28,061 nucleotides of DNA from a bacterium (lineage in GTDB: Bacteria > CG2-30-53-67 > CG2-30-70-394), in contig JAJRSX010000209.1 in NCBI GenBank assembly GCA_024278555.1, positions 1-28,061 on the forward strand. Direction: 5' to 3'. Below are positions 8,007 to 22,858 of this stretch, piece by piece (positions within the stretch are counted from its first letter, which is position 1; every line of letters begins with the position of its first letter). The notes beneath the pieces were generated by a model. That model searched no databases and was not told the origin of the DNA. It saw only the letters and a program-made list of their open reading frames with translations. A program made the translations under genes and the position numbers.

Positions 8007-8996
8007 CTACCGCACCAGCTTCATCGCCGCCCGCACCCGCTCCATGGTCTGCTCCGCCTCGACCCGCGCCACCTCGGCGCCGGCAGCGAGGATCTCTTCG
8101 ATCCGCCCCGGCGCCGCGGCCAGGGCGACCCGCCGCTCGTGGATCGGGCCAAGCTCCTCCCACAGGTGGTCGCACAGCTGCCTCTTGCAGTCGAAGCAGC
8201 CGATCCCGGCGGTGCGGCAGCCATCGACGATCTCCGCCCGCTCCTCCTCCGGCGTGTACATGCGGTGGAAATCGAAGACCGGGCAGTTGTCCGGCTCGCC
8301 CGGGTCGGTGCGCCTGACCCTTGCTGTGTCGGTGACCGCCCGCGCCATCTTCTTGCGCATGGTCTCCTCGTCGTCGGCGAGGTAGATGGCGTTGCCGTAC
8401 GACTTGCTCATCTTACGGCCGTCGAGCCCCGACATCTTCGGCGCCTCGGTCATCAGCGACGCCGGCTCCGGGAAGGTCTCGCCGTAGATATGGTTGAAGC
8501 GGCGGGCGATCTCCCGCGCCAGCTCCAGGTGCGGCAGCTGGTCCACCCCCACCGGCACCTGGTCGGCCCGGTAGATCAGGATGTCCGCCGCCTGCAAGAC
8601 CGGGTAGCCCAAGAAGCCGTAGGTACTGAGGTCACGGTCCTTGAGGTTCTCCCGCACATCCTTGAAGGTCGGGTTGCGCTCCAGCCACGGGGTCGGGGTG
8701 ATCATCCCGAGGAGCAGGAAGAGCTCCGCGTGGGCCGGCACGTCGGACTGGACAAAGAGGGTGGCGCGCTCCGGGTCGACGCCAGCGGCGAGCCAGTCGA
8801 GGACCACCTCGCGGATGTTGGCGGTGATCGCCGAGGGGTCGTGGTAGTCGGTGGTCAGGGCGTGCCAGTCGACCACGCTGAAGAAGCAGCTACAGGAGTC
8901 CTGCAGAGCGACCCAGTTCTTCAGCGCCCCGAGATAGTTCCCCAGGTGGAGCTGCCCGGTGGGGCGCATACCGGAGAGGACGCGGGGAGTGGCCAT
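8007..8996 (-). CDS. trpS: Tryptophanyl-tRNA synthetase
   Basis: A 329-residue class I synthetase of normal TrpS length that charges tRNA-Trp. The N-terminus reads RVLSGMRPTGQLHLGNYLGAL, with the HIGH-type motif as HLGN (residues 17-20). DWHALTTDY and GFLGYPVLQAADILIYRADQVPVGVDQLPHLELAREIARRFN form the tryptophan and ATP pockets, and the second signature KMSKS is at residues 195-199. The ATG at 8996 begins MATPRVLSG, matching the family start. It lies 32 nt after the M50 protease stop and about 90 nt before scpA; the order M50 protease, trpS, scpA, scpB is conserved in several bacterial groups. Confidence 0.97.
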   Translation of the reverse strand: MATPRVLSGMRPTGQLHLGNYLGALKNWVALQDSCSCFFSVVDWHALTTDYHDPSAITANIREVVLDWLAAGVDPERATLFVQSDVPAHAELFLLLGMITPTPWLERNPTFKDVRENLKDRDLSTYGFLGYPVLQAADILIYRADQVPVGVDQLPHLELAREIARRFNHIYGETFPEPASLMTEAPKMSGLDGRKMSKSYGNAIYLADDEETMRKKMARAVTDTARVRRTDPGEPDNCPVFDFHRMYTPEEERAEIVDGCRTAGIGCFDCKRQLCDHLWEELGPIHERRVALAAAPGRIEEILAAGAEVARVEAEQTMERVRAAMKLVR

Positions 8997-19557: not shown

Positions 19558-19648
19558 GAGGGAGGAGCCGGCCCCTGCCGGCGATCCCGCCCGTGGGGTG
19601 GGCGGGGCCTACCGCCCCGAATCGCGAGCGGCAGCTCGCTCCTCCCTC
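19558..19648 (+). repeat. Multi-hairpin palindromic element, copy A
   Basis: A 91-bp element bounded by perfect 11-bp arms GAGGGAGGAGC / GCTCCTCCCTC (19558-19568, 19638-19648). Inside are hairpin 1, GCCGGC-CCCT-GCCGGC (19567-19582), followed by GAT; a central stem CCCGCCC / GGGCGGG; and hairpin 2, GCGAGC-GGCA-GCTCGC (19624-19639). A second copy lies inverted at 22268-22370. It sits between mutS and the GDP-fucose synthase gene and could also end mutS transcription, though there is no T run. Confidence 0.75.
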
Positions 19649-20714: not shown

Positions 20715-22274
20715 ATGGAGCGAACGGTGAGCGGACGGCGAGAGACGAGGGGCGGGTCAGGGCGGCAGGCGGCGTCGGCGGACGTGCGCGACCTGGCGGT
20801 GCTCATCGACTCGCGCTACCCGGTGGTCTATGTGGAGAGCGGCGAGGAGCAGCGGGTGGTGGGGCTGTGTGGGGAGGTGGCGCGCCGTCTCGACCTCCCC
20901 CTCTTTACCTGGTCGGTGACCGACGGGCTGTGGCGGCGGGAGGCGGGCTTCTCGCCGATGCTCACCACCCGCGAGCCGGCCCAGGCCCTGGAGCACATCG
21001 GCGCCTCCGACCTGGAGGCGATCTACCTCCTCTGCGACCTCCACCCCTACCTCGACGATCCCCACCTGGTGCGCCGGCTGCGGGAGATCGCCATGGGGTA
21101 TCGCGAGCGGCGGCGGGCGATCGTCCTGTTGAGTCCGAAGGCGGTGATCCCCGACGAGCTTGGCCACCTCTGCACCCGCTTCACCCTCGCCACCCCGGAC
21201 GAGGGGCGGCTGATCGCCCTGATCGAGGCGGAGATCGATCGCTTCCGCGCCACCACCGGCCGGCCGGTGCGCATCGAGGCGGGGGTGGTGGAGGCCCTCG
21301 CCCGGGCCCTGGCCGGCCTCTCGGAGGTGGAGGCGGTGGGGGCGGTCCGTGGGGCCATCGAACGGGATGGGGCGCTCACCCATGCCGACCGCGACGAGGT
21401 CCTCCACGCAAAGAAGGCGCTCATCGAGCGAGACGGACTCCTGAGCCTGGAGCTGGAGACGACCAGCTTTGCCAACGTCGGCGGCCTCACCGGCCTCAAG
21501 CGGTGGCTGGCGCGGCGCAAGGGCGGCTTCTCCCGGGAGGCGCGCGACTTCGGCCTGGAGGCGCCGCGCGGCATCCTCCTGGTGGGCGTGCAGGGGTGCG
21601 GCAAGTCGCTCGCGGCGCGCGCCACCGCCGGCCTCTGGGAGCTGCCACTCCTGAAGCTCGACGCCGCCCGCCTCTACGACAAGTACGTGGGCGAGTCGGA
21701 GCGCAACCTGCGCAAGGCCCTGGCCACCGCCGAGGCGATGGCGCCGGTGGTCCTCTGGCTCGACGAGATCGAGAAGGCCCTGGCGACCTCCAGCGGCGGC
21801 GGCGGTGACGCCGACGGCGGCCTCGGCCGCCGCATCCTCGGGAGCTTCCTGACTTGGTTGCAGGACAAGGAGGCGCCGGTCTTCGTGGTCGCCACCGCCA
21901 ACGACATCGCCGCCCTGCCGCCGGAGCTGATGCGCAAGGGGCGGGTCGACGAGATCTTCTTCGTCGACCTCCCGACCCTCGACGAGCGCAAGGATATCTT
22001 CGCCCTCCACCTCGACCGCCGCGGCCGCGATGCCGCCAACTTCGACCTCGATCGCCTCGCCGCCGCAAGCGACGGCTTCTCCGGCGCGGAGATCGAGCAG
22101 GCGGTGGTCTCCGGCCTCTACGCCGCCTTCTCCGGCCCCGGCCACCTCACCACCGAGCTGCTGTTGGAGGAGCTCACCGCCACCCGGCCGCTGTCGGTGA
22201 CCATGGCGGAGAAGGTCGCCGCGGTACGCGCCTGGGCCGAGGGGCGCACCGTCCCGGCAGGCGGCGACCGGTAG
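20715..22274 (+). CDS. AAA ATPase of the Ycf46 type
   Basis: A 519-residue protein resembling the Ycf46 AAA ATPases of cyanobacteria and plastids. The N-terminal half (LAVLIDSRYPVVYVESGEEQRVVGLCGEVARRLDLPLFTWSVTDGLWRR ... AIYLLCDLHPYLDDPHLVRRLREIA) is the Ycf46-specific domain, which looks like a degenerate ATPase fold. The C-terminal AAA module has FANVGGLTGLKRWL, Walker A GVQGCGKS (K297), the pore-type segment KYVGESERNLRKAL, Walker B VLWLDEIEKAL and the sensor VVATANDIAALPPELMRKGRVDEIFFVDLP. A glycine-rich insert (SSGGGGDADGG) follows Walker B. The cellular role is poorly known; links to CO2 use or redox control in cyanobacteria should not be assumed here. The stop TAG lies in the palindromic element. 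Confidence 0.88.
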   Translation: MERTVSGRRETRGGSGRQAASADVRDLAVLIDSRYPVVYVESGEEQRVVGLCGEVARRLDLPLFTWSVTDGLWRREAGFSPMLTTREPAQALEHIGASDLEAIYLLCDLHPYLDDPHLVRRLREIAMGYRERRRAIVLLSPKAVIPDELGHLCTRFTLATPDEGRLIALIEAEIDRFRATTGRPVRIEAGVVEALARALAGLSEVEAVGAVRGAIERDGALTHADRDEVLHAKKALIERDGLLSLELETTSFANVGGLTGLKRWLARRKGGFSREARDFGLEAPRGILLVGVQGCGKSLAARATAGLWELPLLKLDAARLYDKYVGESERNLRKALATAEAMAPVVLWLDEIEKALATSSGGGGDADGGLGRRILGSFLTWLQDKEAPVFVVATANDIAALPPELMRKGRVDEIFFVDLPTLDERKDIFALHLDRRGRDAANFDLDRLAAASDGFSGAEIEQAVVSGLYAAFSGPGHLTTELLLEELTATRPLSVTMAEKVAAVRAWAEGRTVPAGGDR

Positions 22275-22370
22275 GGGCGAGCGTTCGCTCGCGAACCGCG
22301 CCGCCGGCGCGGTCGGCCCCCCGATCTCAAGGTGGGGCCTGCATCGCCGGCGGCAGCCGGCCCCTACCGG
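22268..22370 (-). repeat. Multi-hairpin palindromic element, copy B
   Basis: A 103-bp element, inverted relative to copy A. Its perfect 11-bp arms are CCGGTAGGGGC / GCCCCTACCGG (22268-22278, 22360-22370). It has the same two hairpins as copy A with different loops: GCGAGC-GTTC-GCTCGC (22277-22292) and GCCGGC-GGCA-GCCGGC (22346-22361), plus a central CCGCGCC-GGC-GGCGCGG stem. It fills the gap between two convergent genes, and each arm supplies one of their TAG stop codons. Confidence 0.8.
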
Positions 22371-22735
22371 GCGCTCGCCGTTGCCTTGCGCAGGAGCGCC
22401 GCGGTGGCGCCGCCGTGGGGGTCGTGGCAGGTGAGACAGCCATGGGCACGGCGGCTGTGGCCGGAGGCGGTCTCTCCGTCGTGGCATCCGGCGCAGAGCT
22501 GGTCGGCGGTGGCGCGCAGGCGGAAGCGGCCCGGCCGGGTGGCGGTGCAGCGGGCGCCGTCGGCGGCGTGGCAGGCGGTACAGCCGGTGCCGCCGACCTG
22601 CTCGATCGCCAGGGGTCCGTGGAGGTGGCTGTCCGACACCACCCCGGCGTGACAGCCGCCGGCGAGACACGAAGCGGCCACGGAGGCGGGGAGGGTAAAG
22701 GCGAGGGCGACGAGGAGGGCGGAGAGGCGGGCCAT
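22364..22735 (-). CDS. Small tetrahaem c-type cytochrome
   Basis: A 123-residue exported protein: a signal peptide (MARLSALLVALAFTLPASVAA) then four haem-binding motifs in about 82 residues. They are CLAGGCH (C23-H29, the CX4CH form), CTACH (52-56), CAGCH (81-85) and CLTCH (100-104). Extra histidines (such as those in SDSHLHG and SGHSRRAH) could serve as distal ligands. It resembles the doubled-CXXCH cytochromes and would carry electrons in the periplasm; its partners are not encoded nearby. The ATG at 22735 has a perfect AGGAGGT site. Its last codon and stop (CGG TAG) lie in an arm of the palindromic element. Confidence 0.9.
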   Translation of the reverse strand: MARLSALLVALAFTLPASVAASCLAGGCHAGVVSDSHLHGPLAIEQVGGTGCTACHAADGARCTATRPGRFRLRATADQLCAGCHDGETASGHSRRAHGCLTCHDPHGGATAALLRKATASAR

Positions 22736-22813
22736 GGTGACCTCCTGCGGAGGGGGGGAAGGGGAGAACCGCGGAGAGGGGAGATGACGCGACAGAGGCC
22801 GCGACCGGAGGGG

Positions 22814-22858
22814 CCTCTTCCGTATCACCGCCGCAGGTGGCGGTGCAAGGGGAAGAGG
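22814..22858. other. Strong two-stem hairpin upstream of the cytochrome gene
   Basis: An 8-bp outer stem CCTCTTCC/GGAAGAGG (22814-22821, 22851-22858) encloses a 7-bp inner stem CACCGCC/GGCGGTG (22826-22832, 22839-22845), with a 4/5-nt internal loop and a 6-nt terminal loop. It lies 79-123 nt before the cytochrome ATG and could be in its 5' leader. No known riboswitch consensus was recognised, and there is no T run for a classical terminator. Confidence 0.6.

Follow-up and report, generated by a model that had tools for sequence, protein, structure and literature searches.

Two multi-hairpin elements stand between genes in the 28,061-nucleotide stretch of bacterial DNA analysed here (the window), and they raise the question of what kind of element folds in this way and why it should lie where genes end. 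REP elements, short passive mobile repeats, are present in many bacteria, and the initial annotation of the window had guessed at something REP/BIME-like. That guess was right: the repeat unit has GTAG-1 features, and in each element two units of different class face each other head to head across a structured spacer. The elements, which the initial annotation could not assign to a known family, can be placed as GTAG-1-type REP pairs (BIME/REPIN), and they almost certainly belong to the GTAG REP/REPIN kind. A GTAG-1 unit has a GTAG tag, separated from the stem by an unpaired dinucleotide, and a 3-base motif opposite (Di Nocera et al. 2013, PMC3733652), and the same study already described heterodimers in head-to-head arrangement as well as structured spacers; two REPs paired in inversion are termed a REPIN (Bertels and Rainey 2011, PMC3116915) or a simple BIME. 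No Rfam family matched in the window at the gathering score.

Both copies are complete elements, copy 1 of 87 bp and copy 2, of a long-spacer type, of 99 bp, and each joins two classes of REP, which we named RE (GCG stem) and LE (GCC- or GGG-like stem):

19560..19646 (+), copy 1, complete head-to-head REP heterodimer, 87 bp (covariance model R1, 85.1 bits; fold z -4.69)
19560..19585 (+), LE-class REP of copy 1: GGGAGGA tag, stem GCCGGC / loop CCCT / GCCGGC, GAT (direct reading)
19586..19602 (+), spacer hairpin a of copy 1: CCCGCCC-GTG-GGGTGGG (sequence, fold)
19603..19619 (+), spacer hairpin b of copy 1: CGGGGC-CTACC-GCCCCG (sequence, fold)
19621..19646 (-), RE-class REP of copy 1, inverted: GGGAGGA tag, stem GCGAGC / TGCC / GCTCGC, GAT (dimer parsing)
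22270..22368 (-), copy 2, complete head-to-head REP heterodimer, 99 bp, long-spacer type (covariance model R1, 64.9 bits)
22270..22295 (+), RE-class REP of copy 2: GGTAGGG tag, stem GCGAGC / GTTC / GCTCGC, GAA (dimer parsing)
22296..22312 (+), spacer hairpin of copy 2: CCGCGCC-GCC-GGCGCGG (sequence, fold)
22315..22339 (+), long spacer hairpin of copy 2: GGCCCC...GGGGCC, 25 nt
22343..22368 (-), LE-class REP of copy 2: GGTAGGG tag, stem GCCGGC / TGCC / GCCGGC, GAT (dimer parsing)

Both copies had been located correctly in the initial annotation, and the inner hairpins, the GAT and the order of parts that it described were borne out by reading both copies; the outermost 2 bp that it included on each side are chance pairs beyond the element proper, and the arms extend by at least 2 pairs beyond the element proper in only 5 of 39 aligned copies. 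Copy 1 has GGAG in place of GTAG at both ends. For either strand of either copy, none of 200 dinucleotide shuffles folded as well (z -3.6 to -4.7). The long spacer hairpin of copy 2 (GGCCCCATCTTGAGATCGGGGGGCC; window 22315-22339, L011, L013, L036, L037, L041, L043, L045, L048) is near-identical in about a dozen dimers and better conserved than the other spacer hairpins.

A covariance-model scan found two copies only within the window. Across the 3.06-Mb draft genome of 211 contigs that contains it, BLAST matches numbered 45 with copy 1 as the query and 42 with copy 2, and a covariance model built from 26 copies gave 149 matches, a figure in which both strands of one place are often counted, as the element comes close to being an inverted repeat. 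From about 80 places retrieved, 66 intact head-to-head dimers were parsed, with further ones found by the covariance model; neither a lack of further copies nor unpaired arms, which the initial annotation had named as grounds for abandoning its view, was encountered in this whole-genome search. The dimers are 84-113 bp long, without an internal gene, and consist of a REP unit, two small spacer hairpins and a second, inverted unit. From either end, the unit starts with (G)GTAGGA, continues with a hairpin of 6-bp stem and 3-4-nt loop, and closes with GAT, GAC or GAA. The terminal tag is exactly GTAG at 107 of 132 REP ends and is preceded by G at 95% of ends, and nearly all parsed REPs have the unpaired GA before the stem and the GAT, GAC or GAA after it. 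Stems recur in pairs, namely GCCGGC with GCGAGC (both window copies), GGGGGT with GCGGGT and GGGGGC with GCGGGC, plus mixtures; strict homodimers are few (6/66), and 54 of the 66 dimers combine one RE with one LE stem. At L129:1368-1577 and L127:1496-1704, REP dimers are paired about 40 bp apart, possibly as a start of BIME clustering or through re-use of the REP's own GTAG as a target.

Compensated changes, on which the initial proposal of selection for folding was based, proved real in the REP stems and partly so in the spacer hairpins, and a shuffle test found none in the outer arms. Across 132 REPs, 96.0% of cells in the hairpin stems are paired versus 77.4% (maximum 80.3%) when the 3' arms are dealt at random, and the second spacer hairpin (helix 4) has two-sided changes in 4 of its 7 pairs. 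The outer arms are 94.2% paired versus 93.6% when shuffled (maximum 95.0%), and their covariation as one large folded unit was rejected. They are two inverted copies of one conserved tag, (G)GTAGGA, from which the long outer stem follows. Since the REP stems covary and the outer arms do not, selection acts on each hairpin. The loops, at first described as tetraloops that differ freely, are dominated by TCCC/TCCT, TGC/TGT and CAT, by subfamily.

Like published GTAG families, the dimers are extragenic and lie mainly at the 3' ends of genes: with genes called by a crude codon-usage gene finder, 32 stand between codirectional, 17 between convergent and 1 between divergent genes. Copy 1 lies 32 bp 3' of mutS. 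A dimer is faced by 76 gene ends, of which 25 stop exactly on the TAG of a REP's GTAG and almost none at the neighbouring offsets; the base at -1 of GTAG is A at 5 of these 25 stop ends versus 0 of the 107 other ends. Copy 2 coincides with a stop at either end:

22272..22274 (+), TAG of the RE-end GTAG of copy 2, the stop of an AAA+ ATPase gene at 20715-22274 (+)
22364..22366 (-), TAG of the LE-end GTAG of copy 2, the stop of a CXXCH cytochrome gene at 22364-22828 (-)

Such coincidences would arise if REP dimers had inserted at random near gene 3' ends, their own terminal TAG making new stops of which those in frame were selected. GTAG REP ends have been remarked often to supply a TAG stop codon (PMC3733652), and new stops did appear at L097R and where copy 2 adjoins the ATPase gene, the sister genes ending elsewhere in both cases. 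The bearing of the sister genome G001, the one congener compared, is largely the opposite. A search with end sequences of 130 bp from all 25 stop-end genes found G001 orthologs for 24, of which 16 end at the homologous codon without the element (11 GTAG, 1 CTAG, 3 TAA and 1 TGA), with alignments that end 19-30 nt short of the stop in 3 of the 16 (L114L, L127bR and L137L); where the alignment comes within 10 nt of the gene end, 13 of 15 orthologs stop at the same codon. These counts make the origin of the stops from the elements themselves very unlikely. The GTAG orthologs are those of L140L, L097L, L003L, L012L, L127bR, L019R, L007L, L114R, L133L, L114L and L035R. GTAG accounts for 27% of other stops in the retrieved DNA, and 11 of 16 gives P ~7e-4, which is only a guide because orthologs conserve stop identity; the firmer fact, judged from these alignments, would be that the stop pre-exists the element.

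The dimers might instead be ancestral and have been lost or have decayed in the sister, leaving GTAG there as a scar. At the copy 1 locus G001 does hold degenerate REP-like debris (covariance model 24.7 bits, E 0.024), so that a greater age of copy 1 or re-use of the place is possible, and the L114R site in G001 possibly holds a decayed REP. However, 10 of the 11 GTAG sites in G001 have REP-remnant scores like those of random GTAG sites and no remnant, and G001 has its own GTAG REP subfamilies (GCCGGTTGCACCGGC with GCCGAATCCTTTCGGC; L186, L187, L188), with the same skeleton and different stems, as is expected under separate amplification; we consider ancestral loss or decay unlikely. Two dimers lie in tandem at L188. 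The next gene downstream is also syntenic at 9 of the 16 same-codon sites, and a clean two-sided empty site was sought in G001, where the second junction was readable at none, the intergenic DNA being too diverged. Gain is indistinguishable from precise excision in the sister because a single sister genome was compared.

On the LE side of copy 2, the G001 cytochrome ortholog stops on the same GGTAG without the element, and we infer that this stop was probably the insertion site of copy 2; on the RE side, the ATPase ortholog runs on for about 31 codons. The two orthologs are on different G001 contigs, and the synteny of copy 2 there is not established. At L114 (G000:C101:1156-1240), the two TAGs of the element serve as stops of two convergent genes, whose sister orthologs both have GTAG stops at the corresponding codons, about 440 bp apart, a pair of stops for which one insertion event is no simple explanation. 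At another dimer (L162:1912-2157; G000:C188 near 8018-8103), synteny between the two species breaks, the flanks matching different G001 contigs.

The sister sites also bear on the idea that the elements act as RNA, being kept as 3'-UTR hairpins that stabilize mRNA, attenuate transcription or stall ribosomes at the stop. Their 3'-end location and stable folds would suit such a role, and E. coli REPs at most 15 nt from the stop codon have been reported to lower translation (PMC12306157). Yet the covariation resides in separate REP hairpins and is also explained by transposase recognition, no T-run follows either window copy, and the dimers are largely absent at the compared orthologous sister sites, so that no conserved role at those genes is seen. 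Retention for an RNA role seems improbable on this evidence, although RNA function and mobility are not mutually exclusive.

The best explanation is that the dimers are REPINs/BIMEs, non-autonomous relatives of IS200/IS605 insertion sequences, and the sister alignments suggest that they probably inserted in the manner of an IS200/IS605-like element, beside a GTAG already present. Characterized TnpAREP enzymes bind the GTAG-hairpin and cut at CT, with GTAG as the proposed guide (PMC8266576); because CTAC, the complement of GTAG, contains CT, we infer that dimers may insert at CTAC. A single-strand HUH transposase (Y1, RAYT-type) would recognize the GTAG-hairpin of one REP and cut the target strand at CTAC, where the single-stranded dimer would be joined, one terminal GTAG coming from the target (LE end, stem GCC or GGG) and the other from the element itself (RE end, stem GCG). 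Because landing on a GTAG stop would not alter the protein, such insertions would be more likely to survive. Against insertion at GTAG, 5 of the 16 same-codon orthologs have CTAG, TAA or TGA instead. The literature searched (open-licence PMC text) yielded no statement of GTAG as an insertion target. If insertion is next to a pre-existing GTAG, the target would be a fixed tetranucleotide, open to testing at polymorphic sites of any REP-rich species, and the TAG stops supplied by REPs would be traces of that targeting; in kind the element is ordinary, and its frequent landing on GTAG stops would be a clue to the spread of such repeats.

The two REP classes differ in a manner consistent with this scheme. 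Stop ends comprise 14 LE versus 4 RE ends (p 0.018), two of the four RE ends being excluded as insertion points by the sister genes, and the tag departs from GTAG at 13 of 40 LE versus 4 of 50 RE non-stop ends (p 0.006); both p-values are exploratory, the classes and polarity tests having been framed after data inspection. Tentatively, and with chances just short of even, the REP heterodimers could be polar minimal IS200/IS605-like elements in which the LE REP joins the target GTAG and the RE REP carries its own, harmless landing on GTAG stops explaining both the 3'-end location and the TAG stops, possibly in all GTAG REP families.

The initial annotation had looked to a RAYT-type transposase gene as a partner. 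The genome contains four Y1_Tnp genes, with NF047646 matches of which one is above the cut-off; they are mostly TIRYT-like, with GGGGTCAG/GGGGACAG repeats:

L034:904-1863 (-), Y1 transposase gene
L032:1201-1884 (-), Y1 transposase gene
L031:307-1203 (-), Y1 transposase gene
L033:1222-2160 (+), Y1 transposase gene

At least three of the four sit between TIRtron-type inverted repeats, those on contigs C170, C70 and C27 having GGGGWSAS-type terminal inverted repeats (GGGGTCAG/GGGGACAG-type) or remnants of them, of AAAAGGGGACAGGACCC-type at C70 and of GGGTCAGG-type at C27 and C170. At C185, a quick test found no common repeat, and the same test also overlooked the C27 and C170 repeats, which can be seen by eye. 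The C-terminus of C170 is DnaA-like and C27 matches an HTH weakly, both features of subclass 2.1, the TIRYTs (Quentin et al., PMC6006769); solved-structure matches were none for C70 and, for C170, only to the DnaA-like C-terminus. A degenerate GTAG REP lies about 105 bp upstream of the C170 gene. In this draft genome a REP-flanked RAYT as partner was not securely found, the Y1_Tnp genes looking mostly like TIR-flanked TIRYTs. TIR-like repeat debris (AAAAGGGTCCTGTCCCCTTTT) is present just beyond the REP dimer in L004.

Outside the genus, a scan of 39 other genomes with the covariance model, under stricter filters, gave no match. Four Planctomycetales MAG contigs, the only ones returned by a contig scan from which the window's own genome is possibly absent, match the GCCGGC REP exactly over 24 bases; at least three of the four matches are in a similar head-to-head setting, with T rather than G before the tag.

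Among known systems, the dimers share with GTAG-1 REPs (PMC3733652) the GTAG, unpaired GA, 6-bp GC-rich stem, short loop and 3-base motif, as well as head-to-head dimers, heterodimers, structured spacers, 3'-end location and the use of TAG as a stop; by contrast, the stem set (GCCGGC, GCGAGC, GCGGGT, GGGGGT, GCGGGC and GGGGGC) is this genome's own, and the G before the tag at 95% of ends and two spacer hairpins as standard also set them apart. As in the REPIN of Pseudomonas fluorescens SBW25 (PMC3116915), an oppositely oriented REP doublet forms a hairpin, there taken as the mobile unit, whereas here two different REP classes make up each dimer, no cognate RAYT was found and mobility is putative, read from genome comparison. 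The inverse mosaics of two REP types recall the E. coli REP/BIME and TnpAREP system (PMC8266576), in which GTAG is essential and a proposed guide, but the stems here lack a conserved bulge, and loops and spacers differ. Finally, the proposed logic would be that of IS200/IS605 elements (IS608), namely a hairpin with a 5' guide tetranucleotide, insertion beside a fixed tetranucleotide and distinct ends; unlike those elements, which encode their own Y1 transposase, the dimers span only 84-113 bp and contain no gene, and their target position is derived from comparison.
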